This document shows positions 3,614 through 25,756 of a DNA stretch of 25,756 nucleotides, in pieces. Each line of letters opens with the position of its first letter. Position 1 is the stretch's first letter. The translations under genes and the position numbers were made by a program. A model generated the notes under the pieces. That model made no database searches, was not told where the DNA came from, and saw only the letters and a list, made by a program, of their open reading frames with translations. Source of the stretch: a virus; the IMG/VR virus record IMGVR_UViG_3300046000_007303, positions 1 through 25,756 of that record; one strand, written 5' to 3'.

Positions 3614-3624
3614 TCAATCAACCC

Positions 3625-3656: not shown

Positions 3657-3663
3657 ACAAGCC

Positions 3664-4332: not shown

Positions 4333-4336
4333 TCCG

Positions 4337-4585: not shown

Positions 4586-4590
4586 AGATT

Positions 4591-7090: not shown

Positions 7091-7097
7091 TTGAATT

Positions 7098-7850: not shown

Positions 7851-7868
7851 TGTTCATCTCAACAGTTG

Positions 7869-7906: not shown

Positions 7907-7919
7907 AACTTTTTGAATT

Positions 7920-8561
7920 ATGCCAGCAAAACCAAACCCAACAAAAAAGGCCGCAAAAAAGGCAGCTAAGATAGCGAAGAAGAAAGCGAAACCCAAGGCC
8001 GCCCCAAAGCAACCCGTGGCCACCACGATCGTAACCGAGCTCACGGAGCAAATCGATAACCAGGAGATCACCGACCGCAAAGGAGACGCATTGCAACCGA
8101 TCGGGCCGGATCGAATGAGACTCATGCAGGCCGATGTTATGTCGGCGATCGTAAGGAAGTTCGACGGTGACAAGCTGGCCGGGCTCCTGGATGAACTAAG
8201 CAAAGCCGAGAACATCACGAATGGAGGGCACAAGATCCCGGACAACCGGACCAGACTGAGCGCGGCCACGTTGATCCTGGCATACATGATTGGCCGCCCG
8301 GTGGAGCGCCAGGAGATCTTGAACATCAACATGAACGCGGATGCCGCTCACGACCTGGCAGAGCGCCTGAAAGGATCACCAGCACTCCGCGCAGCCTTCC
8401 GATCGATCCTGGAGCAGGCAGAGAAGCACTCAACCACTGAGGCCGTTCCACCAACCTCCACGGTGGAAGTTGTGATCCCGGCGGAAACAAAAGCACCCAC
8501 AGTAGCAAAGAAAGCTAAAGCCGTAGCAAAGAAGAGCCCAACCCTGGAGTTTGAAGATTAA
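7920..8561 (+). CDS. putative terminase small subunit
   Basis: A 213-residue protein. Residues 1-33 are a Lys/Ala/Pro tail (K-K-A-A-K-K-A-A-K-I-A-K-K-K) like a histone-H1 tail, and another such stretch is near the end (V-A-K-K-A-K-A-V-A-K-K). The core (about 65-165) is helical, with L-L-D-E-L-S-K-A, P-D-N-R-T-R-L-S-A-A-T-L-I-L-A-Y and I-G-R-P-V-E-R-Q-E-I. The 'P-D-x-x-T-R-L-x-A-A...Y-x-x-G-R-P' pattern recalls small phage proteins encoded before large terminases. TerS recognises the packaging site and feeds DNA to TerL; the basic tails would suit DNA binding. The assignment rests mainly on position and charge, and an unknown gene lies between it and TerL, so treat it as tentative. Confidence 0.45.
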   Translation: MPAKPNPTKKAAKKAAKIAKKKAKPKAAPKQPVATTIVTELTEQIDNQEITDRKGDALQPIGPDRMRLMQADVMSAIVRKFDGDKLAGLLDELSKAENITNGGHKIPDNRTRLSAATLILAYMIGRPVERQEILNINMNADAAHDLAERLKGSPALRAAFRSILEQAEKHSTTEAVPPTSTVEVVIPAETKAPTVAKKAKAVAKKSPTLEFED

Positions 8562-8575
8562 CCGACACCAATTTC

Positions 8576-9238
8576 ATGCCATTACACGAAGCATCTACCC
8601 CGCCCATCAAAGTTCTTGTTCGTCGAGAGTTTATGACCGACCACACCGCCGGGCACGGTGAATATGAGCTTGGAGTTATGATCTCGGTAAGATCCATCCC
8701 CGGCAACGCTGCGCTTTTCCAGGTATTGCTGGAGAATGGTGCATTGCGGGACAAGCTGCCGATCCACGCACTTCATTCACAAAAGCACGAGCATGAACAC
8801 CCATTCCATCATCTTCAGCTTTGGAATTGTTTCAGCTCTAATTTCAACCTGGTCGAGCTTCAGTATCTTGCTGGCCTAATTGTTGAGGTTCGCATGAAGA
8901 CGGGTAAATGGGCTCGCGGCCGATACCTTTGGACAATGCAATGGGGGTCTGACATGACACACGGGATTGATTTTACCCTTGCCGTTGATCCATCCGAGCA
9001 CAAGAGCGCTCATTTCATCCAGCTTGACAATGGGGAGTTTGCTTTACAACCCAACAACCGCCTCCGCTGGCATGAGCCCAGCCACGTCACCAAGCCTTTC
9101 CCGGATCGACCGGACTACAAAGTGAACACTGACGAGTGGAATTGTGAAGCGCACGACAAATGGGCAACCGAAGACAGCAACGATTGGATGTATCGAGTGA
9201 ACGAAGAAACTTCATCTTCTCAAAATGTTGAAGATTGA
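8576..9238 (+). CDS. hypothetical protein upstream of terL
   Basis: A 220-residue soluble protein beginning 14 bases after the putative terS. It has a His-rich stretch (H-S-Q-K-H-E-H-E-H-P-F-H-H) near residues 65-78 that could bind a metal, and a C-terminal region P-D-Y-K-V-N-T-D-E-W-N-C followed by K-W-A-T-E-D-S-N-D-W-M-Y. I do not recognise a family. Lying between terS and terL suggests a role in packaging or head assembly, by position only. The leader ACACCAATTTC lacks a Shine-Dalgarno sequence. Confidence 0.65.
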   Translation: MPLHEASTPPIKVLVRREFMTDHTAGHGEYELGVMISVRSIPGNAALFQVLLENGALRDKLPIHALHSQKHEHEHPFHHLQLWNCFSSNFNLVELQYLAGLIVEVRMKTGKWARGRYLWTMQWGSDMTHGIDFTLAVDPSEHKSAHFIQLDNGEFALQPNNRLRWHEPSHVTKPFPDRPDYKVNTDEWNCEAHDKWATEDSNDWMYRVNEETSSSQNVED

Positions 9239-9301: not shown

Positions 9302-9385
9302 TGTCCACGTTAGTCTAGTTGGTTGGCGGCCGGGTAAGCCAAAGGACACGCAAACCCGGCAATTCATACCCTTCCGCGCCTGCGG
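9302..9385 (+). other. structured non-coding leader before terL
   Basis: The 176-base gap 9239-9414 has no convincing gene. GCCGGGT at 9329-9335 pairs with ACCCGGC at 9354-9360 (seven pairs, 18-base loop). The loop contains GGACA (9344-9348), which can pair with TGTCC at 9302-9306, so a pseudoknot is possible. A small hairpin CCGC/GCGG follows at 9374-9385. The part at 9310-9330 looks like a tRNA D-arm, but no T-arm or acceptor stem follows. It may be a regulatory or packaging RNA/DNA element. Confidence 0.35.
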
Positions 9386-9414
9386 GGATAACCAATAAGG
9401 CGCACATTTTCTTT

Positions 9415-11190
9415 ATGATCGATCAAGCCACTATCCGGGAGACAATTCGCTGGGACACAGCGGCCTGGATGGAGTCATTCGGCAAGATTCGAAAGAAGAG
9501 CGGTGAGCTCGTAAGGCCACAGGCTAACGTGTATCAGATCCGGATCAATCAAGTGATCAAAGCCGCGCATGAATCCGGCCGACCTTGCCGCCTGGTATGT
9601 CTCAAGCCCCGGCAAAAAGGATCTTCCACCTTCTCGGTTGCCGCCGGGTATCGCCGATTGCAAGCCAAGCCAGCCAGCGGGCTCATTGCGGGAGGTGCGC
9701 ATTTCCAGGGGAAGAACTTATTCAAGATCTTGTCCACTTACGCCGAGACTGACGAGCTCGACCCACGATCATGCAAAGTAATGGACTCCGAGGCGCGCTT
9801 TTCCAATGGATCATCGATGGAGCGGATCACGCTGGCCAACCAGAACGCAGGCCGATCCGGCACTTTCCAGGTGTTGATCATCACCGAGGTTGCTTACCTG
9901 GCAGAAGAGGGAGTCGCCAACGCCGACCAGGTGTTGAACGGCCTTCTCAAGTGCGTACCAAACGAGCCCGACACACTGATCATCGAAGAGAGCACAGGCA
10001 AAGGTGCCAGTGGATTCTTTTACGATCGATTCGACAAGGCGATCACGCTCGAAGAGTTCCTTGCTGGCAAGAACGGCTATGTCAAAGTGTTCGCGGCCTG
10101 GTTCGAGTTCGATGATTCTCGCCTACCTCCAGAGAGTGAAGGAATCTACTCTTTCAGCGATCTCACCCCACAGGAGCAGAAGCTCTCCGAGAAGTGGAGC
10201 CTGGATCTTTATCAGGTCGCATGGATGCGATGGGCGATCCGAGACGAGTGTAACGGTGACTTCGATCGGTTTTGCCAGGATTATCCCTTCGATCCGGAAA
10301 GCGCCTTCCTCAAATCTGGCCAATGCCGATTCGATCAGGCCGGGCTCGATCACCAGGCAGAGATGTCAAAGCGTATTCCTCGCCAGTTCGGTGCACTTGA
10401 ATACAACCAACGTGCCGACCGTGTTTCCTGGACGCCAACCAGCGAGCAAACCGCCCGCGTCGTCCGATGGGAGCAGCCGCGCCCAGGATGTCGCTACCTG
10501 GTTGCAATCGACCCAATGACAGGAGCCAGTCAAACCGGAGGAATTGATCCCGACAGTCATGGAGTGTTCGTATTCCGGCAAGGCTACGTCGAAAGCGGCC
10601 GCTGGGTGCCTCCAGCCGTTGTTATGCGCAACATCCTTGTAAAAGACGGGATCCGGTTCGGATGTTGGTGGGACATCGACGTTCTTACCGAAGAGGTTTG
10701 GCGCATGGCTCGCTACTACCAAGCCAAGATCATCCCGGAGATGAACATGGACAAGGGAATGGTGGAACTTCTCAAACTCAAAGGAGACGTGGACATTTAC
10801 CAGCGCGAGCTCTTCAACAACCGTGAGAACGTAATTACGAAGGCCTATGGCTGGATGACGGACGTTCGGACCAGGGGAATGATTATTGAAAACCTTGCCC
10901 GAGGTGTGCGCGAGACAGGCCGGGGAGAATTTGGCGAAGGCCTGCACATCCGGTGCCCTTGGGCGATCGAGCAGATGCGCCATTTCGTGACCAAAGCCAA
11001 CGGGAAAGCCGAAGCTTCGCAAGGCAAGCACGACGACGACGTATTGGCGATTGCCATTGGATTCCAGCTTATCGACCAGGCAACTCCCTGGTTCGAAAAT
11101 GCGCGGGAGGAATGGACACCGCCGGATCTTCGTAGCCAAAGCCAATACTACAACCGACCAGTGCCCAAAAAATCTACGTTTTCCGCTTGA
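9415..11190 (+). CDS. terL: terminase large subunit (TerL)
   Basis: A 591-residue protein. I take ATG 9415; the frame extends to a TTG at 9319, but that would place the structured leader inside the protein. The ATPase domain has a variant Walker A K-P-R-Q-K-G-S-S-T (64-72), Walker B V-L-I-I-T-E (153-158) and the coupling motif E-E-S-T-G-K-G (191-197). The RNase H-like nuclease domain has V-A-I-D-P (D366), then I-I-P-E-M-N-M-D-K-G (the second acidic residue), and H-D-D-D-V (539-543). TerL is the motor that pumps DNA into the prohead and cuts it. All motifs are present, so it should be functional. Antisense open frames over it are shadows. The nearest AAGG is 14 bases upstream, too far for a good ribosome-binding site. 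Confidence 0.93.
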   Translation: MIDQATIRETIRWDTAAWMESFGKIRKKSGELVRPQANVYQIRINQVIKAAHESGRPCRLVCLKPRQKGSSTFSVAAGYRRLQAKPASGLIAGGAHFQGKNLFKILSTYAETDELDPRSCKVMDSEARFSNGSSMERITLANQNAGRSGTFQVLIITEVAYLAEEGVANADQVLNGLLKCVPNEPDTLIIEESTGKGASGFFYDRFDKAITLEEFLAGKNGYVKVFAAWFEFDDSRLPPESEGIYSFSDLTPQEQKLSEKWSLDLYQVAWMRWAIRDECNGDFDRFCQDYPFDPESAFLKSGQCRFDQAGLDHQAEMSKRIPRQFGALEYNQRADRVSWTPTSEQTARVVRWEQPRPGCRYLVAIDPMTGASQTGGIDPDSHGVFVFRQGYVESGRWVPPAVVMRNILVKDGIRFGCWWDIDVLTEEVWRMARYYQAKIIPEMNMDKGMVELLKLKGDVDIYQRELFNNRENVITKAYGWMTDVRTRGMIIENLARGVRETGRGEFGEGLHIRCPWAIEQMRHFVTKANGKAEASQGKHDDDVLAIAIGFQLIDQATPWFENAREEWTPPDLRSQSQYYNRPVPKKSTFSA

Positions 11191-11194
11191 TAGA

Positions 11195-11221
11195 TTGACA
11201 AATGGTTAAGTTTTGTTGACA
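11195..11221 (+). promoter_or_regulatory. duplicated TTGACA in the gap after terL
   Basis: TTGACA occurs at 11195-11200 and again at 11216-11221, 21 bases apart (two helical turns), in the 40-base gap between terL and the next gene. ACAAA/TTTGT also forms a small inverted repeat between them. Neither copy has a good TATAAT at the right distance, so a standard promoter is not proven; a regulator-binding pair is as likely. Confidence 0.25.
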
Positions 11222-11230
11222 TTCCCTGCT

Positions 11231-11818
11231 ATGGACGAGCAGCAGTATCAAGCCGATGTTAAGCCTGGTTTTAAAAAACCAATGGATAAACCTACTGCTG
11301 GGGCCGGAATGGGCAATTCAGCACAAACGCAACCTATGTCACAAAGGCAACAACCAGTGCAAGCGGTTGAACAAGCCGCCGGATTCGGCGAAGCCTTATC
11401 AAGCCTTCTTTCGACAGGTGGCGGGTTACAAGCAAATGTCCGGGATAACAAAGCAGGAACATACAAAAGTGGAGCCATCAAAGGCATGACCGAAGACGAG
11501 GCCATTGAATACGGCAAACAACTATGGGAAAAAGCACCCAAAGAAATCCGCGACAAATATGCCAGTCGTGTTCAAAACCGCCCGGCCGACTCTGAACGCA
11601 TGGCCGCATTTAATCAAATGGATCAAGCTGCGCAGGCCGCAAACAACGTAAACAATTTGCCTGGTGCTGATGAAGATTTTGTTGTCAATCCAGAATCAGG
11701 AACGCGAATCACTAACCGCACTAAAGAAAACACTTCAATGAATTCCACTGGAACACAATCCACCCAATGGAAGAAGCCGATGGACAAACCAACCAAAGGA
11801 GCCGGATACGGCTATTGA
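11231..11818 (+). CDS. low-complexity protein with the same motif at both ends
   Basis: A 195-residue protein read from ATG 11231 (the frame also has a TTG at 11213). It is rich in Gln, Asn, Ala and Gly and probably mostly disordered. Residues 15-28 (KKPMDKPTAGAGMG) and 181-194 (KKPMDKPTKGAGYG) are near-identical copies placed at the two ends. The copies use different codons for most shared residues (AAA/AAG, CCA/CCG, GAT/GAC, CCT/CCA, ACT/ACC), so the motif seems held by selection on protein. The middle has a helical segment (D-E-A-I-E-Y-G-K-Q-L-W-E-K). It lies between terL and another low-complexity gene, so a virion or scaffold role is plausible. No family recognised. Confidence 0.6.
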   Translation: MDEQQYQADVKPGFKKPMDKPTAGAGMGNSAQTQPMSQRQQPVQAVEQAAGFGEALSSLLSTGGGLQANVRDNKAGTYKSGAIKGMTEDEAIEYGKQLWEKAPKEIRDKYASRVQNRPADSERMAAFNQMDQAAQAANNVNNLPGADEDFVVNPESGTRITNRTKENTSMNSTGTQSTQWKKPMDKPTKGAGYGY

Positions 11819-11855
11819 CCCAATTTTAAAACAACCACAACCATTACCCACGATC

Positions 11856-13145
11856 ATGCCAGCCAACTATTTACAAATGGGTCAAACGTCCACAGGAAGT
11901 TATGACGTGAAAAAAAAACCCGCAGCGCCCGCAGCTCCAGTTCCAGTGGCTAATTCTTCAATGGCTGCGAACATTAAGCCTGTTGCCCCAGCTCCGGCGG
12001 ATTCAACTATTCCGCGAGCAATCCCTGTATCGTCGGTGGAACCTAACCGATCTCAACTTATTTCTGACGGAAAGGTGGCAACACCTGAAAGCAGATTGCA
12101 AGCGCAGGCATACAGTGAGCCGCGTAGCACAAAAGAAGCGCCCCCAGCACCCCCAACTTCTGCCGCGCCTAAATCAGCGCCTCAAGTTGATTATACAAAG
12201 GAGTTTAGAAAAGGCACCGCTTCCAATTTTGATCCTAAATCTCCACTAGACAAGGCTAAGATGGACGCATTGAAAGCAGGAGATAAAAATTGGGCCAACA
12301 ATGATTCAGCTCGTGAACGGATAAAAGGAGTCAAGTCACCAGGCGCAGCACCAGCACCATCCGCAGGAGCAGGAGCAATGGCAGCCAATGTAAAACCCAA
12401 CAGCGCGGAAATTGAGCAAAACAAGACCGCAATGAGCAACGCTCCAACCGGGGGGAACGTAAGCAAAGTATTGCCAGATGTTACCATAAAAGGAAAAGAC
12501 AAGAACGGCAATAATATCGAAGTCAAAAGACGACAATATGAAACCATAGAGGATAGCGCCGGAAATAAACAGAGGATCAACCCTGCTACTGGATTGCCTT
12601 TTGGCTATCAACCCGGCGACAAGCTTCCATCCGGAGCAACTGGATCCATGCAAACGCGAGCGAAAGAATCAGAGTTAAGACAAGAACAATCGAGGCCTGC
12701 CGCAGAAGCCTATGCAAAGAATCAGGCAAAAGCTAAAGCTGATGCGGCCGCAGCTAAAGCCGCACCACGTCCTGGAAGCCTAGAAGCGCGTGACGCCGGA
12801 GTAGCGCAAGCCAAGGCTAACGCTCAAAAAGAATACGAGCAGCGCCAAGCACAAGGACGCGCTAACAAAGCGGCATGGGACGCCGGAGACAAAGCATTGA
12901 AAGATGCAGGGATGAAACAAGTTGCTGCACCAGCTTCCTATGACTGGATGCGTAACATTGGCAAAGGAGCCGAAGCGCCACAGGAATCACGATCTGAGAA
13001 AAAAGCGCTGACTAGATTTTACGAAGACAATCCAGGGATTCAAAGCGATAACGCAAAAAGATGGAGGACTGGAGAGGATGTGAATTCCGCAAATCGTTAC
13101 GACAAAATGATGGAAAAACGCGCGCCGAAGAAATTCAAACGCTAA
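11856..13145 (+). CDS. Ala/Pro/Lys-rich disordered protein
   Basis: A 429-residue protein dominated by Ala, Pro and Lys. It has the P-A-A-P-A-A-P-V-P stretch near residue 22, a repeated MAAN[I/V]KP motif at 36-42 and 175-181 (the two copies use different codons for A, A, N, K and P), and a long helical Ala/Lys/Gln region at about 275-345. It ends in the strongly basic K-R-A-P-K-K-F-K-R. No signal peptide or membrane segment. It resembles disordered virion-associated or DNA-binding proteins, but I cannot name a family. It lies 24 bases before the giant gene and probably shares its transcript. The leader CCACGATC lacks a Shine-Dalgarno sequence. Confidence 0.6.
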   Translation: MPANYLQMGQTSTGSYDVKKKPAAPAAPVPVANSSMAANIKPVAPAPADSTIPRAIPVSSVEPNRSQLISDGKVATPESRLQAQAYSEPRSTKEAPPAPPTSAAPKSAPQVDYTKEFRKGTASNFDPKSPLDKAKMDALKAGDKNWANNDSARERIKGVKSPGAAPAPSAGAGAMAANVKPNSAEIEQNKTAMSNAPTGGNVSKVLPDVTIKGKDKNGNNIEVKRRQYETIEDSAGNKQRINPATGLPFGYQPGDKLPSGATGSMQTRAKESELRQEQSRPAAEAYAKNQAKAKADAAAAKAAPRPGSLEARDAGVAQAKANAQKEYEQRQAQGRANKAAWDAGDKALKDAGMKQVAAPASYDWMRNIGKGAEAPQESRSEKKALTRFYEDNPGIQSDNAKRWRTGEDVNSANRYDKMMEKRAPKKFKR

Positions 13146-13169: not shown

Positions 13170-16100
13170 ATGGAAGACTTTCTCGATGAAGAACAAGAAG
13201 AGAATCCGTCGATGTTTACCCAAAAGCCAAGTAGCGCTATGCGACGTGGTATGGGTGAAACAGCGGTGACTGACAACGTAAGCCCGCAAAGCGGATTCGC
13301 AGCAAAGACCGCACCTCCAGTGTGGAGAATGTTCGTCGATAACGTGGCCTTCCAGAAGAGCAACGCTCAAGCGATCGCTTCCGAGCGACAAGCTCTCAGT
13401 CGATCTGATGCGGCCGTGAGAGAGTCCCAGCGCCTCGCAGAAAAAAACGACCCGGTGAAGCTGGGATTTGAGCGCGAGCTTGATTCTACTCAAAACGAAA
13501 TTTCCAGGATCTCACTTACTCGCCAAGATCCAAACTTCAAGCGCCTTGATAAAAAGGAGCGCGAAATGTTTGAGGCTGAGTATGGAATGAAGGAGACTTC
13601 AGCCCAGCGCAAGAAAGAGCTCGATGCCGTCCTTGGACGCGAAAAACAGCTCGATGAAGAGGATCAGCACCTTTACGGCCTGAAGGTCAAAGCCAATGAG
13701 CTCAAGATTGGAGGCCCTGGCTACTGGCAGCAGACCTACGCGCAACAGCAAAAGGACATTGCCGACCAAGGCAACGAAGCGGCCAGCAACGCGCAAGGCC
13801 GGGCGAAAGCACTCGAAACGGCCGACAACTCAGCGGCCCAGGAGGAAACCGCACTCATGCAGAAAATGCAGCAGGGTGTTCGAGGCACGGAGTTGACGGA
13901 AACCCAGGCCAAGCTCAAAGAGCTCAAGCAAACCCGCGAGGCCTTCGCAGAGCAGAAAGCAGCACCGGACCAGGAAGTTGAAGCGGTTCGTGGACAGGCC
14001 CAGCAAAGCCTGGAGGGAGAGCGACGCCAACGTGAAGCGCAGATCCGCGAGAGTATCAACATCAAAAACCTGGATCGACTGACGGGAGTAGAAAGGGGAG
14101 GACTTGAGGCCACCAAAGATACCGTAACAGTATTAGGCAAAGCCGTCTCCGATCTGAACACTTTGGATGTTCCTAGTGAGGGAGAGCGCATGAAGAAAAA
14201 GGCTTCCGTTCAATATCTTGAGGAACAGTTGAACGGAATGACAGCAAGGCTTGGTGGGCGTGAAAACGTCAGGGCTGACTTGCAGGCTAGAATCGCCAAC
14301 TATGATAAAGCGCTCAAAGAAAATCCTAATTCAACATGGAGCGAAACCAGGCTGGATAACGTGATGCTTCTCAAAATGCTTGAGCGCCAGGACGAGAAGT
14401 TTGCCGAAGCTGGCATTACGGATCCGAAAGACCGGGAGCGTATCGTCAAAGATGCAGCGCTAGAAAATTACTGGACGGCACAAGATACCGACAACGTGCG
14501 GGGACTTTCCACCGGAGAGGTTGTTTTTAACCCAGCTCGAATCTTTGGCCAGCGGGACCGGATCGAGGCAGACATCAAAGCGAAAGCTGGAAGCGAAGCC
14601 GATGCGGCCGAAGCCATTGCTCGAATGGAAGCAGTGAGAGTGAATGTAGTAGCGAAGATCGCCGAGGATTTAAGGAAATCGGACGGAAGTTTCAAGACGC
14701 ATGAGTCGGCAATGAAAAAAGCCGGAGTTACCGATGAAGTGAAGATCGTTGATTCCTACGCGGCCACGATGAGGGATCGCAATGAGATCATCAAATTCGG
14801 TGATGCCGTGATAACGGGCGTCAAAGAGGGTGGAGCGGGCATATACAAAACCGCAGTAGGCGGGACAGCCGGAGCCGTCAGATTGGTAGGTGCCGATGAA
14901 CTGGCAGGAAGTATGGGCGCTCACGCGCAAGAAGTAGGGAAATACATTGCCGCTTCAGATTCCGCTTTCGATACCAGAGGCAATACCGGGTATCTCTCTG
15001 TAAGCAAAGACCTTTCGGGAACTGTCACTCAAATGGCTCCGATGTTTGTCGGTGGAGCGTATGCAAAAGGGCTGAAAGGGATCACCCAGGCCATCGTAGC
15101 AGGGACTTCAGTTTATGGATGGGCAGGAGCACAAGGCTACGAATCAAAACTTTCCGACGCAATCGAAATAGAGAAAGAGAAGTTCGGAGGCCGTGACCTA
15201 ACCGAGAAAGAAATAGCATCTACTCTTGGCCGGGCCGACGTGCAGCTTTCAGCGTTTGCAAACGCAGCGCAAACCATGATTCTGGCGAAAGTATTAGGCG
15301 GAGGTGTTGAGCGAGCAGCGCTTGGCAAAGCAGCGCAATCGATGAGCCTTCGTGACTTCCTCACAAAAGGAGGCCGCAGAGCTCTCCAGGACAGCACATT
15401 ACGAGCGGAGCTCAAGAAGATGGGTAAAACCATTTTCGCCGATGCAAAAGATGAGTTTGTCGAAGAAGGACTTAACCAATTCTTAGACAAAGCCATTTCA
15501 GCCGTCGGCCTGGGACAAGATTTCAAACTTGGAGATGTGCTCGAAGAATCGATCCATGCAGGTTTAATGGGCGCGGTTGTCGGTGGAGGCCTTCCCCAAC
15601 TCAGAAGAGGCGAACAAGCCAGCGCTGAACATGACGAAAGAAAAGGGGTCAACACTCGCCTGATCGCTCAAGATCCAGGAAGCCCGAAAGCTCAACAGGA
15701 CGAGATCGACAAGGCCAAGGCCATTGCCGAAAAGCCAAGCGATCTGGATGATGTGGCGAAACACGTCGCAATCACTCGTGAGATCAACGCAAAGGAAGAA
15801 GCAGGAAAGCAATCTTTCATCGAAGCTCAGGAGAAATATACCCAGGCCCAGGCGACAGGAGATCCGGTTGCGATCGCGCAGGCCGAGCAAGTTTTAGGCA
15901 AAGCCACCGCAGAAGCGGCCGCCCCGACGCAAACCAAGGGGATGCTTAAAATCACCAACGGCAAAGGTTTGGAAACTCTTACCGATGCCGAAGTCAAATC
16001 GCTTGGCATCACTCGTGAAGGCAAACCAGTTTCCGCAAAAGAACTGGCCGCCGCCGGGCTCACTGCACCACTGGTGTCAAATAATACAGCAGACGGATCT

Positions 16101-19100
16101 TTAGTCATTACCGACGCAGGCAGCGCTATAATGGGTAGCGTATCACCAGCAGCAAAGACTCAGGTGACAATGGACGAAACTCAGTATCGTGCCGCCGCTA
16201 TCGCTAAAGCACAGGCCGCAGCAGCAGGAACAGCTCCAGGAGCCGCAGCAGGAACTACCGGATCGACCGGATCAACCGGAACCGCACCGGGATCAAGAAC
16301 CGCGCCCGAAGAAGCACCATTTTCCCCAAAAGGCATAATAAAAAGAACCAACGCCGAGCTTGATCAAAAAGAAACGGAGTTGAAAGCAATCCTTCGCCAA
16401 AATGTCACTGATCCTGACGGCCAAGAAGTAGCCAAGCTTGCGCAGTTGAGCATTGACGCTATCCGCGCAGAGAAAGACCGTCGTGCAGCAGATCCTAACT
16501 TTGTCGATCCAGCGGCCGCAACACCAGGAATCGCACCAACTGACCGTGTTTTCCGGATCACCGGAACGAATGGCACCGTGATCGAAGTCACCGCCCGCAA
16601 CGAAGCCGACGCGCAGAATCAAGCCGTGTCCGATCCTTCCTGGCAAGGTGGAGAGAAAGTTGACAGTGTGCTCGATGTAACACCGGAAACCGCCGAAATC
16701 AATTTAGGTGCAGAAGTGCAGCCTGGTGCAAATGCACCGACCAACACTGGTGCACCAACCTCAACCGATCGCCCTGAAGTTAGAATCAAGAAAGCACTCG
16801 CCAAAGCGAAGAAGATGCTTGGAGACGGCCTCAAGATTACCAACGACCCGAATAAGAAGACGGCCGCTCACGAAGATGGCACGATTGTAATCAACATCGA
16901 CCAACTCAAGGCCGCCGCCGCAAAGCGGAACATGAGCGAAGAGGAAACAAGCGTTTGGATTTCCAAGTCGATCGACGAGGAAGTTCGCCACGCCGCTCAA
17001 CACCGCGCAGCCCAGGCAATCTGGAAAAGCAAGGGCAGCCCCGGCGACTATGTTACATGGCGCAATGAGCATTACGGCAAAATCTGGCAAAATGAGTTTG
17101 TCGCATCAGGCAAGGATCAGATGGTTATCGATATTTACGGTGCCAAACTTGCCAGGTATGAGCCTTGGGAAAAGGCTTTCGAAGGCCTCCGCATCATCCA
17201 GCAAAAGACGGCCACCGGATCCCCGACCGAGATCGCCAAGTTTTGGGCAAATCTTCGCCAGGAAACGGTTGATCACCTTCGCGCAGCCCTGAAAGCGCTC
17301 AAAGAGCTTGTGGCCAGCGGCCTATCCCCGGAGCTCCAGGTGGAGATCGACGCGATCACCGCGCAACTCAAGGAATACGACAAGGCCAACAAGCCCGCGA
17401 AAGCAGCGCCAGCGCCGAAATCAGCGCCCCAGGCCGATGCTTCACGATGGACATTCAAAGAAATAGCAGATGATCTTTACAATCTTGGCGCTGGAGAAAT
17501 CTCTAGTCTTTCCGACTTTTCGCCAAAAGGACCAAGGGGAACCACAACTAACGAAATGCCATCACGGCAAGACTTAGAAGGTTTATTCGGCAAGCCATTT
17601 ACTGAAGAGGAATGGATCGATTTGCAGAACGATTATGTAGGTGGGCGTAATTTTGCAGAATCGCAAGCAGCCGAGGAAAGCGCCCCAACGGAGCCACAAG
17701 AGCCAAAGCAGCCAACGCAAGTCACTTTCGTTCGTAATGGTGAAACCATCACCGGTACATTCCGTATCCAATCGGAGAAGAACGGCAAGATCATCGTCGA
17801 AGTGAACGGCAAGAACGTCCTGGTTGATCCTTCCGAGATCGTGGAGCAGCCGAAACCCGTTTCTGCTAAACCACAGGAAACTAGCAGCAAATCACCAGAA
17901 ACCCCAGAATGGGAGAATTTCCCCGAAGAGTTTCAATCGCTTGGAATCCCGCGCGCCGAGATGCCACAGATCAAAGCCGAGGACCGCTCCGCAATGGTGC
18001 AGTTCCTCAAAGCCCGTGGAATTAACTACGAGGCCGACGTGATGATGCGCCCCTCGCAGCTTTCCCCAACCCAGGCGGAATACTCACGCGAGAAGGTTGA
18101 AAAAGCCAAATCCTACGAAGGAGGCAATCGCGCAATCCTTGTTTCCGCCAATGGCCGGGTTATTGACGGCCATCACCAGTGGCTTGCAGCTCTCGAAACC
18201 GATCCAGACACGCCGATCAAAGTAATCATCCTCGAAGCTCCGGTTATGGAGATCCTGGAAACCGTCAAGCAGATGCCTTCCGTGGAAACGGCCGAGGGAG
18301 CCTCAGCCCCGGCTCCAGCGCCCGCTCCGGCCCCCATCGCCGATTTTTCCCAGGCCGAATATGCAAAACGCAAACGCGCACTCAACAAAGCGATTAAAGC
18401 AAAGGATTGGCCGACCGTAGTAGCGAAGGCCACCGCCGACTTGGAGTATTTTGAAAAAACAGTATTCCCGGATGATTGGTCGATGTGGGAGCGCGCCAAG
18501 GAAGACGCTGAACAGCAAATCTCGCCTCGCAATTATGTTGAGCCGATTTTAAAACCATACGTTCCGGCCTCGGAAGCAGCGCCCCAAGCTAAACCAGCGC
18601 CCGCACCCGCAGCGAAGCCAGCTCTTTCCGAGGGAGAAAGCGCTCTCAAAAATATGTTCACCGATCTGGTCGATGGACTGGAAACAGCAGAACTTACCGA
18701 CGAGTTTTACCAGCAGCCGATCCCGGTAGCGAAAATGGGGCAACTCATTGGTGCCGCTCAAATCTTGATCTCCGAGGGAGTCACGACGCCAGAAGGCCTG
18801 GCCGCTTCTCTCGACAGGATCTCACCGAAGCTCCGCGTTTATTCCAAAGCGGTGTGGGGTGGGTTCGTGATGGCCAATCCGTCCCTGCAAAGCGATGTGA
18901 AGTGGCTCGACGTGTATGCGGAGATCGACGCCGCGAAACTTGACAATCAGCAACAACTAGAAGACAGTAACAGTGATGAGACGAATCAATCCAATCTTGG
19001 TAGTGAAGATCAGGAAACTGGTGAACAACTGGAACCAGGATCTAAAGGATCCGTGGATTCCAAGCCCGGCAGCGATCTCGATAGCCCAGGCGATCAAAAA

Positions 19101-22100
19101 CGGAGCCCCAACAATGGCAAGGCTTCTGGAGGAGGCAAAAATACTGGAAGCGTGGGCGGAAGATCTCCACGACCAGGTAATCGATCTGACTCATCAGCAA
19201 GTGGACCAGGGGAGGGAAGCGGGAGCGGCCCTGAATCAAGCAATGCTGGAACTGGTGCCAGCAACACCGGAAACGGAACTGGAGTGGCTGGAAATCAACA
19301 GCCTGCCTACTCAGGAAGACCTGGCTACCGTTTAACCGATCCGGAGAAGATTATTGGAGCAAAGGGTCCGAAAGACCGTTTCGCGCGAAATCAGAAAGCT
19401 CTTGAAACTTTCGACCGGGTATTTTCCGAAGGTCGTGAACCGACACCGGAAGAGCTTGACGCGATGGCCGCTTACATAGGCTGGGGAAGTTTCGGCCAGG
19501 AGCTCTTCCAAGGCTCATGGGATCGCCCCAATCCAAAGGACGAGTGGACAAAGGAAAGCGAATGGCTCCGCGAGCACCTTGGCCAAGCAGGATGGGAAAG
19601 CATCCGAGATTCGATCATCAACGCTCATTACACGGATCCTCCGCACGTCAAAGCGTTGTGGGACATTGTTCAGCACCTTGGATTCAAGGGCGGCCGGACG
19701 CTGGAGCCATCGATGGGCATTGGCAATTTCTTTGGCCTTATGCCGGACGTGCTCCGCTCGAAGAGCTCTCTCACCGGGATCGAGCTTGATAGCGTGGTAG
19801 GAGGAATGGCGAAAATGCTTTATCCAGATGCGAACATTCGGATCATGGGCTACGAGAAGAGCGCCACCGCAGACAATTTCTACGATCTGATTATCGGCAA
19901 CTGGCCTTTCCACAAGGAAGGACCAAGCGACACCCGATACAATCACCTAAAACTCTCACTCCACGATTATTTCTTCGTGAAAGCTCTCGATCAGGTTCGC
20001 CCAGGCGGCCTGGTTGTCGGAATTACTTCGTCGGGAACGATGGACAAAAAAGGCCAGGTAGCCCGCCGCCAGATGGCGAAGCGAGCAAAACTCGTTGGCG
20101 CGTTCCGATTCCCGTCTGGAGCATTTAAAGGCTACGCGGGCACCTCCGTCGTTACCGACGTAATCATCCTCCAGAAGCGCACCGAGCAGCTTTCCGAGGC
20201 AGGCAATGAGGAATGGATCGAAAGCGAACGAATCGGCGAAAAAGACAAACAATTCAATGCCAACGTCTATTGGAGAGACAATCCAACCCATATACTCGGC
20301 GAAATGAAATACGGACACGGCACTACCTTTGGTAGAGCTGGAATGACCGTAGAAAGGCCGGACAACTACGAAACCCTGCTTGGATCCATCACCGACAAAC
20401 TCCCAGCCGGGATCTACACGGAAGGCCAGCAGCGCCCCGATCGCAAGGAGTTCTTTAACCGTGAGAACGGAGAACCGCAAAACAGTGTGGTCTATGAAGA
20501 CGGCAGCACCGCCAACCCGAAAGGTTTCTACATCGTCCGGGGAGAGCAGTTGCAACCCCTTTCCGAAGTATTCAAGTGGGAAGTGAAGAGCGAGGCCGAG
20601 ACGAAAAAGCGCAGCGATCAGCTTTCGGCACTTCTGGATCTCCGGAAACAGGTCAAAGAATTGCTCACTTCGCAACGGGAAGACTATCCAGATACCAATT
20701 CGCGCAGATCGGAAGCTCTCGCCACCTTCAATGCTTTCGTCAAAAAACACGGGAGCATTAAGGATTCCACGATGATTAAGGCATTTGAAAAGGCCAACGA
20801 TCCGATGGCGCTCACCCTCCTTAACCTGGAGCGGAAAGAAAACGGAAAAACCGTTCCCCGCGACATTCTCCTGAAAGACATCATGCGCCGTGCGGTTGTC
20901 GATGTTCGAGGAAATATCCAAGATGCGTACGCGATCCAGCGGAACGAAAGCATAAGCCTCGACATAGCCAGGATCGCGGAGATCTCCGAAAGCACCGAGC
21001 AGGAAGTCGTCGATCGCCTTCTTGATCTGAATCAAATCTACAAAACTCCGGCAGGCACCTGGGAGACAGGTGAAGAGTATCTTGGCGGCAACGTCAGGAG
21101 AAAACTACGCGAAGCCATTGACGCCAAAGAGCAGGGATTCGACATGGATCGGAATATCGCAGCCCTGGAGAATATCCAGCCTGCCGATGTCGCCTATTTC
21201 GAGATTGAAGTTCAAATGGGAGCTTCATGGATCTCGAAAGAGGATTATCTCGGATATGTCTCTCACTTGCTTGGAGCTGATCCAGAAATGGCCGAGAAAA
21301 ACTTTACTTTAACCAAGGCCTCTTCAGGCTGGAATTTCAAAGTCAATAATGACGGCTTAGGCCGGGGAACTAACGCCAAGGAGAAATACGGAGTCGCCCA
21401 GCTTCCTTTCGCTAAAATTTTCCAAGCTGCGATGAACAACACGCAGGTAAAAGTCTGGAATCCAAAAGACGACGATGGCCGAGTCACCTTGAACGACGAA
21501 GCGACCAAGATCGCCAACGGCAAAGTTGACACGATCCGCGAGGAATTAGCCGAGTGGCTATGGGCCGACCCAGCCCGCACCGGTAGGCTTTCCAATGACT
21601 ACAACGAGGTAATGAACTCAGAAGTCACCCCGAAACGTAACGGGGATCATCTTCGCCTTGAAGGCCTGGCATTGAAAATGGGTAATTCCGAGTTCGATTT
21701 CCGCAAGCATCAGAAAGATGCGGTATGGAGATTCATCATGGATGGGAAAGGTGTTGGCGCTCACGAGGTCGGCACGGGTAAAACCTTCACTATGGCCGGG
21801 CTCGCCGTCGAAGGCCGGAGGCTTGGGAAATTCCGTAAAACACTCATTTTTGCTCACAACGCAAACTCCCAGGCTGTCTATGAAGAATTTCAAATGGCAT
21901 ACCCCAACGGGAAGTTCCTTTATGTGGACAATCTAAGCCCTGAAAACCGGGATTCAGCATTGAGGCAAATCGCTTTGGATGAATGGGATGCCGTGATCGT
22001 GCCACACTCTTTGATTGAGCGATTCACGTTATCTGAAAAAACATTGATGCAGATTGCTGACAAGCAGATCGTGGCACTTGAAAACGAAATTGCCCAGGAG

Positions 22101-25100
22101 CTTGAAGATATTGGCTACAATCAAGAGCTGGATCTTGACGACATGAAATCCGTCGGCATGGCGTTGAAATATGTTAAGGACTCTTCCACCGCAAAAGAAT
22201 TGGTGAAACAACGTATCGCCATCAGAAAGCGCATTGCCGATAAGGCAGCGAAAGCGCAGGCCGAAGGTGCAATCCTTTTCGAAGATCTTGGGATCGACAA
22301 TATCATCGTCGATGAAGCGCACATTTTCAAAAAAATCAACCTTGCTACCAGGAAGGTAATCAAAGGCCTGAACAAAGTGGAAAGCGGTATCGGTTGGCAA
22401 ATGGGAGCCATTACCGACTACGTTAAAGGCCAAAACGGAGGAAAAGGTGTGTATCTCTTCACCGGGACGCCGCTTACCAACAACCTGAACGAAGCCTACA
22501 ACATGATGCGCTTTGTGATGGATGAGGAAATGAGCGATAGCGGAATCGACAACTTTGACGACTGGTTCAATTCCTTCGCAGCTGCGGTTTCCGATGTTGA
22601 GCTCACCACCGGAGGCACCCATGAGCCTGTCACTCGACTACTATCCTTTGTCAACGTGCCAGAACTGGCTCGGATGGCTGGCAGGTATTTCGATGTAGTT
22701 CTCGCCAAGGATATGCCGGAGTTCAAAGACCGGGAATCAACTGAAGGCATGACCGAAAATCCGGTTGGAAGACCTTTCAAGGCCGTTAAAACGGTGATTT
22801 CCGACATGAGCCCTGAGCAGCTCGCCCATAAGGAGCAGATCCGCCAGCAATACGTCGAATATCAGGCGATGGACGGAAAAGGCAAAATGTTGGCCATGAA
22901 AATGGGCAGGCCGACTCCTATCACAATGGAAGGCCAAGGAACGGCCTCGGCGCTCGATTATCGTCTCGTTGATCCAACAGCCCCAGATTACGCAGGGAGC
23001 AAGATCAACATGATGCTTGGTAACGCGATGACTCATTACAATGAGCACCCGGAATCCACTCAAATGATCTTCATGGAGCGAGGATTGAACGATTACACCG
23101 ATAACGATGAAATTATTCGAGATGAATTCGGGATGCCCACTTACGACGATGAAGGCAAAGCCCGCCGTCGCAAAGTCAGAAGGCCGAAGTTCAACCTTGC
23201 GCGTGACATTGTTGAAAAACTGATGGCCCAGGGAGTAGCACCGGAGGAAATCGCCATTCTCGGAAATATGTCGCTCGATCCTATCGCTTTGCGCCCAAAT
23301 GACCCTCTCCGCAAGGTTTTGAAGATTTCGGCTAAGTTGACCAAGGCGGATATTGCCTCCCTCGCAAATCAGGGGAAAGTGCGCTTTATGATCGGCGGCA
23401 CCGAAACAATGGGAACCGGAGTCAATGCCCAGCGCAACCTCCGCGCAATGCACCATCTTGACGCCCCCTGGACGCCTGGCGCTCTTGAACAGCGCAACGG
23501 ACGCGGCTGGAGACAAGGCAACAGATGGAACACCGTGAATGAATACCGCTATTTCGCGGAAGGATCACACGACGGCCGCCGCTGGCAGGTCCTTTTGAAC
23601 AAGGTGCGATTCATCTACCGATTCACTCAAATGCTTCTCAATACGGAGGGGCAAAACAATCTCCGCGTTCTCGCCGGGGACGGTGCCGACATGAACGAAG
23701 GAGGATCGAGCGTCGCTGACTTCGAGCAATCTTTCTCGGCAGCGGCCGGGGATCCTCGCCTTTTGCTCCGGGCCAAGCTCGCGGCAGATGTCAATAAACT
23801 TGAACGGAAGCGCGACACCCATTTCCGATCCATCGAAAAAGCACGGGAATCGATCCGCGATCTCAAGAAAGATGAAAAGTATGAAAAGGACCAGCTTGAG
23901 TTCTTTGAAAAAGTCATTGATGTAATCAAAGGCACCTTCACCAAAGATTTTGAATTTCAATTCCTTGGCAAGACCTATACCGAGCGGAAAAAAGCGGAAG
24001 AGGCAATCGCCAATCAACCTATCCCAACCAGTAAGGATGACGGCAAGATCCTTGGAAAATATGGCGACAACATCACCCTTCGCCTCAAATGGGATTCTGG
24101 AAGCAATCAGCCGATCCAATGGAGAATTGAGATAGCTCTCCCAAATGGAGCCAGGCACGAAATGACACTTGGAGCTCAAAGCCTCGGATCGTTGGAAGGA
24201 TCCATGCGCGGCCTGATGAGGAACGTCTCAAACAGGCAAGAGAGATTCGGCGATTTCGCCAAGTCGATCGCCTCGCTTGAGGAAATGCTTGGAAAAGAAT
24301 TTACCCGCCAGCCGGAATTGGATTCCAAGAAAAAGGCGCTTTTGCAGATCCTCACCGAATTATCACAATCACCGTTCCCGGCACCATCATGGCTCCGTAA
24401 TGGAGCTCCGGCTGGATCCTTAGTTTATGTCGATGGGGAAGCCCGCGACGTCGAGGCACACCGCTGGGACAAAACAGGCTACTGGATATTACTGGAAAGT
24501 GAAAACGGCGGATTAGTCCCGGTCGATTACAGGAAGGTTATGGATGAAGCCGGGAATAGGCTCTTTGAAGATCATCCATTTGAAGCACCACCTGACAGCA
24601 AGGAGCTTACCGAGGAAGAGATTCGCGGAGTTCTTGGAGGCGAGTTTTTCCTTGCGAGCCCGGATGATACCTCGGCGAGCGGTGATGGATGGTTTATTTC
24701 CGGCCTTTTCCGCGATGTTGGCAAATGGCGGATATACAACTCAGATGGAGATATTCTCGGCGAAGGAGAATCAGCAGGAGAAGCCTACAAGGCCTATCTC
24801 GCTGAAACCACTGAAACCAAGCCAGAGGAAAAAGAAGTCGAAGAGTCACAATACGACCTCGCTGGATTCATCCAGGACGCGCGCCAGGGCTCGAAAGGCT
24901 CACCGCAGCGGATCAAACTCCGTCGCCAGCTCGAAGGCCTGGAGAAAGCGCTTACTCGCTTTGACGAGCAGTTTGAGGGGCAACTCCTAACTCCGCGCCA
25001 AGAGATGATTAAAGATCAGATCAGGGAAGCGGAGGAAGAGCTGGAAGAACTCAAAAGACGCCCAGGATTGGACTACAAGGAATACGACAAACTTCACGCA

Positions 25101-25756
25101 GTTCAGAGCAAAAAACTCGAAGGGCTCGATAAAAAACTAAGGTCTGGATCTGGACGTGAAAACCTAGTGAACAAAATTAAAGAGGTTCGCAAGAAGCTGA
25201 CCGATATGGAGGAAGAGGCAATGAGCCAAACTCAATCCACGTTGATTCCTTACGGATTTACCAAGCGCGAAGATGGCGGCCTGGAAACGGCCGATCTCTA
25301 CGATTTGCCCATCGAAGCCAACCCGGTGGAACTGGCCAAGCATTTAGGCAAAATCTATTTCACCGTGCTCATCAGCGATCCTGAAACTTATGTATTGCGT
25401 CCAAATTATTTTGAAACAAAAAAAGATGCTGAAGAGGCTAGAGCGAACGATCAAATTGTTATTGAGCAAAGGCGAGAAGAAGCTTTCCAGATGATCAAAG
25501 CAATAAACGAAGAGCTTTTTGGAAAAAGACTGGAAAATGCCGATCTGTCCGACGAGATGCCGGAATTCTATTCCCAGCTATCGCGCACGATTACCGAAAA
25601 AATGCCGAAAACGGCAACGCCTATGCAGGTGCTTCAGATTGCCAAAGCCGGAGCCAAGGCTGACGAAATCAAGTGGAGCGGACTTATTCCCTGGTTGCAA
25701 GGCAAAGAAAAGGTTTCCAAGGACGACGTGCTTAACTGGCTTGCCACTGAGGGCCT
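13170..25756 (+). CDS. giant polyvalent protein: DarB-like MTase-SNF2 helicase (partial)
   Basis: One uninterrupted frame from ATG 13170 to the window end, at least 4,195 codons; I read it through and found no stop. Order of parts: acidic N-terminus and coiled coils (about residues 90-300); Gly-rich hydrophobic segments (about 545-575, 621-658, 795-806); an E-E-V-R-H-A-A-Q-H motif (1270-1278); a ParB/Srx-like D-G-H-H-Q-W (1666-1671); a Gly/Ser linker (about 1925-2045); an N6-adenine-type methyltransferase with motif I L-E-P-S-M-G-I-G-N (2178-2186) and motif IV N-W-P-F (2244-2247); an SNF2-type helicase with G-T-G-K-T (2868-2872), D-E-A-H (3048-3051) and Q-R-N-G-R-G-W-R-Q (3441-3449); then coiled coils and, at the edge, a K-W-S-G-L-x-x-W-L module common in phage giant proteins. 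DarB of phage P1 has the same MTase-helicase pairing and is injected to block restriction. Injection here is inference. Confidence 0.88.
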   Translation, partial: MEDFLDEEQEENPSMFTQKPSSAMRRGMGETAVTDNVSPQSGFAAKTAPPVWRMFVDNVAFQKSNAQAIASERQALSRSDAAVRESQRLAEKNDPVKLGFERELDSTQNEISRISLTRQDPNFKRLDKKEREMFEAEYGMKETSAQRKKELDAVLGREKQLDEEDQHLYGLKVKANELKIGGPGYWQQTYAQQQKDIADQGNEAASNAQGRAKALETADNSAAQEETALMQKMQQGVRGTELTETQAKLKELKQTREAFAEQKAAPDQEVEAVRGQAQQSLEGERRQREAQIRESINIKNLDRLTGVERGGLEATKDTVTVLGKAVSDLNTLDVPSEGERMKKKASVQYLEEQLNGMTARLGGRENVRADLQARIANYDKALKENPNSTWSETRLDNVMLLKMLERQDEKFAEAGITDPKDRERIVKDAALENYWTAQDTDNVRGLSTGEVVFNPARIFGQRDRIEADIKAKAGSEADAAEAIARMEAVRVNVVAKIAEDLRKSDGSFKTHESAMKKAGVTDEVKIVDSYAATMRDRNEIIKFGDAVITGVKEGGAGIYKTAVGGTAGAVRLVGADELAGSMGAHAQEVGKYIAASDSAFDTRGNTGYLSVSKDLSGTVTQMAPMFVGGAYAKGLKGITQAIVAGTSVYGWAGAQGYESKLSDAIEIEKEKFGGRDLTEKEIASTLGRADVQLSAFANAAQTMILAKVLGGGVERAALGKAAQSMSLRDFLTKGGRRALQDSTLRAELKKMGKTIFADAKDEFVEEGLNQFLDKAISAVGLGQDFKLGDVLEESIHAGLMGAVVGGGLPQLRRGEQASAEHDERKGVNTRLIAQDPGSPKAQQDEIDKAKAIAEKPSDLDDVAKHVAITREINAKEEAGKQSFIEAQEKYTQAQATGDPVAIAQAEQVLGKATAEAAAPTQTKGMLKITNGKGLETLTDAEVKSLGITREGKPVSAKELAAAGLTAPLVSNNTADGSLVITDAGSAIMGSVSPAAKTQVTMDETQYRAAAIAKAQAAAAGTAPGAAAGTTGSTGSTGTAPGSRTAPEEAPFSPKGIIKRTNAELDQKETELKAILRQNVTDPDGQEVAKLAQLSIDAIRAEKDRRAADPNFVDPAAATPGIAPTDRVFRITGTNGTVIEVTARNEADAQNQAVSDPSWQGGEKVDSVLDVTPETAEINLGAEVQPGANAPTNTGAPTSTDRPEVRIKKALAKAKKMLGDGLKITNDPNKKTAAHEDGTIVINIDQLKAAAAKRNMSEEETSVWISKSIDEEVRHAAQHRAAQAIWKSKGSPGDYVTWRNEHYGKIWQNEFVASGKDQMVIDIYGAKLARYEPWEKAFEGLRIIQQKTATGSPTEIAKFWANLRQETVDHLRAALKALKELVASGLSPELQVEIDAITAQLKEYDKANKPAKAAPAPKSAPQADASRWTFKEIADDLYNLGAGEISSLSDFSPKGPRGTTTNEMPSRQDLEGLFGKPFTEEEWIDLQNDYVGGRNFAESQAAEESAPTEPQEPKQPTQVTFVRNGETITGTFRIQSEKNGKIIVEVNGKNVLVDPSEIVEQPKPVSAKPQETSSKSPETPEWENFPEEFQSLGIPRAEMPQIKAEDRSAMVQFLKARGINYEADVMMRPSQLSPTQAEYSREKVEKAKSYEGGNRAILVSANGRVIDGHHQWLAALETDPDTPIKVIILEAPVMEILETVKQMPSVETAEGASAPAPAPAPAPIADFSQAEYAKRKRALNKAIKAKDWPTVVAKATADLEYFEKTVFPDDWSMWERAKEDAEQQISPRNYVEPILKPYVPASEAAPQAKPAPAPAAKPALSEGESALKNMFTDLVDGLETAELTDEFYQQPIPVAKMGQLIGAAQILISEGVTTPEGLAASLDRISPKLRVYSKAVWGGFVMANPSLQSDVKWLDVYAEIDAAKLDNQQQLEDSNSDETNQSNLGSEDQETGEQLEPGSKGSVDSKPGSDLDSPGDQKRSPNNGKASGGGKNTGSVGGRSPRPGNRSDSSASGPGEGSGSGPESSNAGTGASNTGNGTGVAGNQQPAYSGRPGYRLTDPEKIIGAKGPKDRFARNQKALETFDRVFSEGREPTPEELDAMAAYIGWGSFGQELFQGSWDRPNPKDEWTKESEWLREHLGQAGWESIRDSIINAHYTDPPHVKALWDIVQHLGFKGGRTLEPSMGIGNFFGLMPDVLRSKSSLTGIELDSVVGGMAKMLYPDANIRIMGYEKSATADNFYDLIIGNWPFHKEGPSDTRYNHLKLSLHDYFFVKALDQVRPGGLVVGITSSGTMDKKGQVARRQMAKRAKLVGAFRFPSGAFKGYAGTSVVTDVIILQKRTEQLSEAGNEEWIESERIGEKDKQFNANVYWRDNPTHILGEMKYGHGTTFGRAGMTVERPDNYETLLGSITDKLPAGIYTEGQQRPDRKEFFNRENGEPQNSVVYEDGSTANPKGFYIVRGEQLQPLSEVFKWEVKSEAETKKRSDQLSALLDLRKQVKELLTSQREDYPDTNSRRSEALATFNAFVKKHGSIKDSTMIKAFEKANDPMALTLLNLERKENGKTVPRDILLKDIMRRAVVDVRGNIQDAYAIQRNESISLDIARIAEISESTEQEVVDRLLDLNQIYKTPAGTWETGEEYLGGNVRRKLREAIDAKEQGFDMDRNIAALENIQPADVAYFEIEVQMGASWISKEDYLGYVSHLLGADPEMAEKNFTLTKASSGWNFKVNNDGLGRGTNAKEKYGVAQLPFAKIFQAAMNNTQVKVWNPKDDDGRVTLNDEATKIANGKVDTIREELAEWLWADPARTGRLSNDYNEVMNSEVTPKRNGDHLRLEGLALKMGNSEFDFRKHQKDAVWRFIMDGKGVGAHEVGTGKTFTMAGLAVEGRRLGKFRKTLIFAHNANSQAVYEEFQMAYPNGKFLYVDNLSPENRDSALRQIALDEWDAVIVPHSLIERFTLSEKTLMQIADKQIVALENEIAQELEDIGYNQELDLDDMKSVGMALKYVKDSSTAKELVKQRIAIRKRIADKAAKAQAEGAILFEDLGIDNIIVDEAHIFKKINLATRKVIKGLNKVESGIGWQMGAITDYVKGQNGGKGVYLFTGTPLTNNLNEAYNMMRFVMDEEMSDSGIDNFDDWFNSFAAAVSDVELTTGGTHEPVTRLLSFVNVPELARMAGRYFDVVLAKDMPEFKDRESTEGMTENPVGRPFKAVKTVISDMSPEQLAHKEQIRQQYVEYQAMDGKGKMLAMKMGRPTPITMEGQGTASALDYRLVDPTAPDYAGSKINMMLGNAMTHYNEHPESTQMIFMERGLNDYTDNDEIIRDEFGMPTYDDEGKARRRKVRRPKFNLARDIVEKLMAQGVAPEEIAILGNMSLDPIALRPNDPLRKVLKISAKLTKADIASLANQGKVRFMIGGTETMGTGVNAQRNLRAMHHLDAPWTPGALEQRNGRGWRQGNRWNTVNEYRYFAEGSHDGRRWQVLLNKVRFIYRFTQMLLNTEGQNNLRVLAGDGADMNEGGSSVADFEQSFSAAAGDPRLLLRAKLAADVNKLERKRDTHFRSIEKARESIRDLKKDEKYEKDQLEFFEKVIDVIKGTFTKDFEFQFLGKTYTERKKAEEAIANQPIPTSKDDGKILGKYGDNITLRLKWDSGSNQPIQWRIEIALPNGARHEMTLGAQSLGSLEGSMRGLMRNVSNRQERFGDFAKSIASLEEMLGKEFTRQPELDSKKKALLQILTELSQSPFPAPSWLRNGAPAGSLVYVDGEARDVEAHRWDKTGYWILLESENGGLVPVDYRKVMDEAGNRLFEDHPFEAPPDSKELTEEEIRGVLGGEFFLASPDDTSASGDGWFISGLFRDVGKWRIYNSDGDILGEGESAGEAYKAYLAETTETKPEEKEVEESQYDLAGFIQDARQGSKGSPQRIKLRRQLEGLEKALTRFDEQFEGQLLTPRQEMIKDQIREAEEELEELKRRPGLDYKEYDKLHAVQSKKLEGLDKKLRSGSGRENLVNKIKEVRKKLTDMEEEAMSQTQSTLIPYGFTKREDGGLETADLYDLPIEANPVELAKHLGKIYFTVLISDPETYVLRPNYFETKKDAEEARANDQIVIEQRREEAFQMIKAINEELFGKRLENADLSDEMPEFYSQLSRTITEKMPKTATPMQVLQIAKAGAKADEIKWSGLIPWLQGKEKVSKDDVLNWLATEG
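18973..19335 (+). other. long overlapping +1 reading frame inside the giant gene
   Basis: A 120-codon frame offset by +1 from the giant protein starts with GTGATG at 18973/18976 and ends at TAA 19333-19335. It exactly covers the Gly/Ser/Asn-rich linker of the main frame, just before the methyltransferase domain. The alternative product looks like a folded helical protein (A-R-L-L-E-E-A-K-I-L-E-A-W-A-E-D-L) with Leu mostly as CTG. It could be an overprinted gene, the product of a frameshift that truncates the giant protein, or a relic of an ancestral frame. A Thr/Gly/Ser-rich linker naturally reads as Leu/Glu/Ala in this offset (ACT GGA gives CTG GA), so chance is a serious alternative. No Shine-Dalgarno sequence precedes it. 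Confidence 0.3.

Follow-up and report, generated by a model that had tools for sequence, protein, structure and literature searches.

The virus record IMGVR_UViG_3300046000_007303 of IMG/VR, analysed over positions 1 to 25,756 (this whole stretch of 25,756 nucleotides is referred to as the window), carries most of a gene for a giant phage protein of 5,988 amino acids. Sequence comparison indicates that the middle of this protein, a DarB-like methyltransferase-helicase payload, is exchanged between phages on a conserved chassis formed by the two protein ends. The protein is likely an anti-restriction polyvalent protein that is packaged in the virion and ejected into the host, its methylase-translocase payload being exchanged by recombination.

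The giant frame and its methyltransferase-helicase core

A single ATG-initiated frame on the plus strand runs from 13170 to the end of the window, comprising 4,195 codons without a stop (13170..25754), and the remainder of the gene lies beyond it. The downstream part, sought by an earlier reading made from the letters alone (the sequence-only reading), was recovered from IMGVR_UViG_3300046002_005924 (37.3 kb), the longest overlapping contig, in which the frame continues to a full length of 5,988 codons. Positions 13170-25753 match this contig with no mismatches, and the only disagreement from 13170 onward is in the last three bases of the window (25754-25756), which form the contig edge. Counting this one, three further IMG/VR contigs from the phage overlap the window at 99.9-100% identity. 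Since these contigs agree, an indel error in the frame is very unlikely, and the open frame of more than 12.5 kb described from the letters is real and unbroken. The hydrophobic segments reported in the same reading were weak: a single 21-residue span of the full protein (residues 5657-5677, beyond the window) had a mean hydropathy above 1.2.

Residues 1917-3736 match PHROG 10089 'DarB-like antirestriction' (E = 0), a profile that spans both methyltransferase and helicase, and the core proper, a DarB-like adenine methyltransferase with an SNF2 helicase, occupies residues about 2050-3520. The methyltransferase domain (residues about 2150-2385, 19617..20324, plus strand) contains motif I as LEPSMGIGNF (19701-19730) and NWPF within IIGNWPF (19890-19910). 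The SNF2-type superfamily 2 (SF2) helicase/translocase (residues about 2770-3482, 21477..23615, plus strand) was assigned from profile matches, its slices clearing Pfam's curated thresholds for SNF2-rel_dom, Helicase_C and ResIII, and from the motifs HEVGTGKT (21762-21785), VDEAH (22308-22322), FTGTP (22458-22472) and EQRNGRGWRQG (23487-23519). All of these motifs were found where the sequence-only reading had placed them, and the SF2 set (GTGKT, DEAH, TGTP, QRNGRGWRQG) lies C-terminal to the methyltransferase, as in a DarB-like dyad. Ahead of the methyltransferase, YIGWGS (19473..19490, plus strand; GWGS at residues 2104-2107) agrees, by motif alone, with the GxGU signature that PMC5512222 gives for the LPD36 domain. 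In an alignment of the window's phage with one relative and three distant phages, the key residues of motif I, GTGKT, DEAH, TGTP and QRxGR were invariant, as were N, P and F of NWPF in motif IV, the second position of which varied.

The strength of selection on this core was estimated against IMGVR_UViG_3300036399_001256, a 59.7-kb phage with a 127-bp exact terminal repeat. The two cores are mostly 80-90% identical and the chassis about 40%, and recent horizontal transfer of the core was considered as an explanation and rejected. Because synonymous sites are saturated to the same degree in the core and the chassis (proportion of synonymous differences, pS, 0.69-0.76 throughout the gene), the contrast reflects purifying selection. 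Nonsynonymous divergence (dN) was lowest in the two enzyme blocks, methyltransferase and helicase, at 0.09-0.12, rose to 0.21 in the stretch that separates them and reached 0.43-0.69 in the chassis, indicating that the enzyme core is the most constrained part of the protein and under strong purifying selection.

A conserved chassis with an exchanged payload

By homology among the relatives, the ends of the protein are a conserved chassis that comprises an N-terminal region, a DEExRH domain, in most cases a ParB-like domain, and a C-terminus resembling internal virion proteins; what the relatives have in common are N-terminal segments, the DEExRH domain, mostly the ParB-like domain, and about 760 C-terminal residues. 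The N-terminal chassis (residues 1-1017, 13170..16220, plus strand) is in parts 26-46% conserved in relatives with other payloads. It is followed by the DEExRH domain (residues about 1221-1404, 16830..17381, plus strand, with DEEVRH at 16974-16991), which recurs in the chassis relatives examined, and by the ParB-like domain (residues about 1581-1712, 17910..18305, plus strand, with DGHHQW at 18165-18182), which matches PHROG 11358 and 2859 and, weakly, the fold of ParB 7bnk. For the C-terminus, the match is to PHROG 6651 'internal virion protein' (1.4e-7). The N-terminal 1,900 residues had been suggested to hold new effector domains. It looks more like a delivery chassis, because much of it recurs in relatives with different payloads.

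A model of the DEExRH and ParB region (predicted local distance difference test, pLDDT, 67) gave weak matches only (ParB 7bnk; Hfq/Tudor-like barrels), and its DEExRH part had no fold match in the PDB. Zincin-like metallopeptidases of polyvalent proteins are recognized by an HExxH motif carried on the helix that follows a small beta sheet, with a glutamate-bearing helix after it. The DEExRH domain has EExxH in place of HExxH, together with two short strands, helices and a later invariant Glu, and could be a degenerate metallopeptidase.

Between the shared chassis ends, four methylase-helicase arrangements were observed. A DarB type A payload is present in the window's phage, 3300036399_001256 and 3300042375_000706, and a DarB type B payload in 3300044539_000180 and 3300005582_000033. 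A strawberry-notch type (AAA_34 2.6e-101, Helicase_C_4 1.3e-22, plus a methyltransferase) occurs in 3300031951_000204, and a reversed helicase-then-methyltransferase payload in a Luteolibacter pohnpeiensis scaffold and 3300043103_000208. In place of a methylase-helicase, the distant chassis member 2609460304_000003 has MuF_C, ddrB-ParB and an ART-PolyVal match that falls below threshold.

Exchange is seen at closest range in the sister contig IMGVR_UViG_3300044539_000180. On the left it is free of mismatches to the window's phage through most of a 5-kb stretch, and on the right there are almost none in 12.6 kb. Between these flanks, the interval 17421..25266 (plus strand, residues about 1418-4033) is replaced or strongly diverged; the C-termini of the two proteins are 100% identical and their helicase cores 29%. 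The sister and 3300005582_000033, in turn, are 37.9% identical in the C-terminus and 78% in the helicase core, and the right-hand end of their homology, at sister residue 4354, coincides with the window/sister breakpoint at sister residue 4350. The corresponding values were 41% and 85% for the window's phage and the 59.7-kb phage, and 59% and 27.5% for 3300005582_000033 and 3300042375_000706. The histories of chassis and core, as judged from these identities, conflict in more than one pair.

The swap between near-identical phages is read from the assembled sequence of one contig, IMGVR_UViG_3300044539_000180, and a second near-identical contig with the sister payload was not found in the related-locus search. 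A chimeric assembly, judged here from the assembly and not from reads, would make this swap an artefact and would bear on the exchange claim only, but we consider it unlikely. The sister frame stays open through both joints, over 6,304 codons, and the joints fall in tracts of about 5% divergence, although a chimera of related strains could match this as well. The sister core type is also found in another chassis, at 72-78% identity. Because 3300005582_000033 and 3300042375_000706 conflict too, the evidence for exchange is independent of the sister contig.

A second bay, after the helicase, differs as well: between the window's phage and the 59.7-kb phage there was no significant match over residues about 3930-4780. 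In the 59.7-kb relative this bay (L005, about 15500-16500) holds unrelated sequence with a DLHEEN motif, reminiscent by eye of a kinase-like fold, which gave no Pfam or PHROG matches. The relative IMGVR_UViG_3300005582_000033 has one uninterrupted frame of 7,213 codons, and there the ParB-like domain follows the payload instead of preceding it.

The conserved ends raise the alternative of a mainly structural internal-virion or conduit protein, in which the methyltransferase-helicase would be a minor passenger. In its favour, some relatives have chassis regions although no methylase-helicase was detected in them, and the C-terminal match is to internal virion proteins. However, the enzyme is the most conserved part of the protein, and where it has been replaced it mostly gives way to another methylase-helicase pair, which makes a structural role with an incidental enzyme very improbable.

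Cysteine depletion and proposed delivery with the phage DNA

The full 5,988-residue protein contains no cysteine, compared with 44 cysteines across 6,044 residues for those of the phage's other genes that were counted (20 rows, one of them off-frame). Sixteen giants had 0-2 cysteines each, the two cysteines counted for the 59.7-kb phage lying before the likely start of its giant, and the strawberry-notch and reversed payloads are also cysteine-free. Homologous methyltransferase-helicase regions allow a matched comparison: all eight plasmid copies had 4-14 cysteines each (57 in 10,859 residues), while 10 of the 11 phage copies had none. Injected N4-like virion RNA polymerases likewise lack cysteine, which has been ascribed to cell entry or to passage through tail and periplasm (PMC2784036, PMC3715699). 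The absence of cysteine appears to be the strongest sequence evidence for ejection of the whole chain, payload included.

We infer the following course of events from comparative sequence. The giant protein would be made late, packed in the virion and ejected with the phage DNA, probably via a short tail, with the N- and C-terminal chassis regions serving packaging and ejection. The payload, an adenine-N6 methyltransferase with an SNF2-type translocase, would then travel along the incoming DNA and protect it from host restriction by methylation or shielding, the role suggested for P1 DarB. The chain may be kept cysteine-free because it must pass the tail and an oxidising periplasm, and recombination would swap the payload bay among phages, presumably to meet different restriction repertoires.

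Several known systems bear on this proposal. Iyer et al. 2017 (PMC5512222) defined polyvalent proteins, which are large multidomain early-phase effectors encoded by portal-terminase phages, and the LPD36-methyltransferase-SNF2 dyad, proposed to translocate on and methylate incoming DNA. The protein studied here, encoded with portal and terminase, joins DEExRH, ParB-like, methyltransferase, helicase and virion-type regions in 5,988 residues. P1 DarB (Punavirus), the archetype of the dyad, is a packaged protein that shields DNA in cis from type I restriction (PMC9024508, PMC5512222), its packaging depending on an N-terminal signal (PMC9024508). Its core is homologous (24-40% over three blocks) with the same domain order, but DarB of this contractile-tail phage has 2,255 residues and nine cysteines, and no match to the window's protein was found outside the core. 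The Bcep22-like giants (BcepMigl gp69, 4,658 residues; JC1 gp69, 4,515 residues) resemble it in size, core (about 30%), ParB-like domain and lack of cysteine, and gp69 of Burkholderia phage JC1 is virion-associated, with 51 unique peptides by mass spectrometry (PMC9144972). Homology to Bcep22-like (Lessievirus) giants does not extend along the whole chain: the BcepMigl chassis could not be aligned by BLASTP, with only the core and ParB-like domain matching, and the window's protein had no Pfam lytic transglycosylase match, unlike those giants. The BcepMigl gene lies at the end of the morphogenesis block before the lysis genes, whereas the gene described here lies between terminase and portal. 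Among annotated phages, the closest core found was that of Pseudomonas phage vB_PaeM_USP_18 gp31 (4,947 residues; 38.5%, and 37% over residues 1872-3871), whose flanks did not match except in the ParB-like domain. N4-like virion RNA polymerases are giant, cysteine-free, packaged and injected (PMC2784036, PMC3715699), but only the style of delivery is alike, and slices of the window's protein gave no T7-like RNA polymerase family match in Pfam, PHROGs or NCBIfam. The exchangeable payload and the matched cysteine contrast set the protein apart; payload exchange in near-identical phages, a matched cysteine comparison and a recurrent linker peptide were not found in the passages of PMC5512222 that were covered.

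A DarB-like anti-restriction polyvalent protein that is probably injected, as the sequence-only reading proposed, remains the best interpretation. It draws on the PHROG 10089 match, the invariant catalytic residues and the low dN of the enzyme; on the terminase-portal position, the internal-virion-like C-terminus and the absence of cysteine, with which the plasmid copies contrast; and on the other methylase-helicase pairs carried by the chassis, the JC1 giant in virions, and the packaged and protective P1 DarB. The same intact methyltransferase and helicase motifs could belong to a modification enzyme acting inside the infected cell, by methylation of progeny DNA or late action on the host, with incidental linkage to virion-type regions, and methylase-helicase fusions are widespread on plasmids. 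This is improbable given that the whole chain, payload included, is cysteine-free, which a purely cytoplasmic enzyme would not need, that the C-terminus is internal-virion-like, that the gene sits in the morphogenesis block, and that the homologous JC1 giant is present in virions.

Some observations weigh against ejection as an anti-restriction protein. The one phage-labelled core of normal cysteine content in the comparison, from the human faecal scaffold MT835575.1, has 13 cysteines in 1,560 residues, perhaps reflecting another delivery route or a phage that is not short-tailed. NWPF deviates from the NPP(F/Y) of canonical enzymes. When slices from the N- and C-terminal parts were searched against Pfam, NCBIfam and PDB sequences, nothing significant was assigned, leaving the N-terminus without an assigned fold, and the AlphaFold model obtained for the last 809 residues was not good enough for a fold search (pLDDT 48; predicted template modelling score, pTM, 0.27).

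Near-identical phages with differing enzymes inside the same, probably injected, protein offer a natural experiment for the polyvalent-protein idea. The payload bay would, if confirmed, help to show which defences select anti-restriction genes, and the phage/plasmid cysteine contrast of one enzyme would give an inexpensive way to recognize ejected proteins from sequence. That one chassis can accept unrelated enzymes is also relevant to phage protein delivery into bacteria.

Linker peptide, gene neighbourhood and host

A short peptide, LxA[AGS]xL, is repeated in several of these proteins, frequently close to module borders. In 3300005582_000033 it is present eight times, mostly as AGPLP, and five other proteins have four to six copies each, while 3300042154_001807 has four AASLD copies instead. 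The full protein of the window's phage has five, three of them inside the window, including LETAELTD (18678..18701, plus strand) in the linker before the methyltransferase and LETADLYD (25281..25304, plus strand) at the right-hand payload border, adjoining the recombination breakpoint. The pattern was picked after inspection and its statistics are weak evidence: the observed number was reached in 0 of 300 shuffles for four proteins, two of them near-identical over much of their length, and the four tested copies in the window's protein are no more than 25 residues away from the edge of a homology block (p = 0.0065). Proximity to module borders gave p = 0.0045 in the sister, a value dependent on the former, and 0.021 in one relative, and was not significant in the other relatives tested. 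Copies within one genome tend to be alike but with differing codons, which makes it unlikely that the peptide seeds recombination at the DNA level. It may be a processing site. We tentatively suggest, as a speculative extension, a cysteine-free injection chassis with a cassette-exchanged payload bay, in which the genome-specific peptide (for example AGPLPA in one genome and AAPLP in another) would delimit the modules and be a processing site, perhaps a target of the DEExRH domain, at which they are separated as the virion assembles or once the protein has been injected.

The giant gene is preceded on the plus strand by the terminase large subunit (9319..11190, the longest frame, its true start probably downstream) and by two low-complexity genes without cysteine (11213..13145, as 11213-11818 and 11856-13145), possibly further ejected proteins. 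All 14 internal differences from the near-identical 37.3-kb contig fall within the terminase gene, at 9864-10860, with none elsewhere, possibly marking a small recombination tract. In sister contigs, portal, scaffold-like and major capsid genes come after the giant gene, and this gene order is kept in IMGVR_UViG_3300036399_001256, IMGVR_UViG_3300031951_000204 and the Luteolibacter pohnpeiensis scaffold. Terminase and portal of the window's phage are 67-69% and 58-63% identical, respectively, to those of the 59.7-kb phage.

Along much of its 63.4 kb, the Luteolibacter scaffold has genes in common with the 59.7-kb phage, in circularly permuted order, so that it appears to be a phage genome present in that culture. 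This one record points to Verrucomicrobiota as hosts; a literature search for Luteolibacter phages gave nothing relevant. In L010, minus-strand genes at 6660-8628 lie between the portal and scaffold-like genes of an otherwise plus-strand morphogenesis block, as in relatives. Downstream in L010, two adjacent genes (14026-15099) carry Thr-rich repeats of the TDTDTTTETG type, to which sister contigs show repeat-like partial matches.
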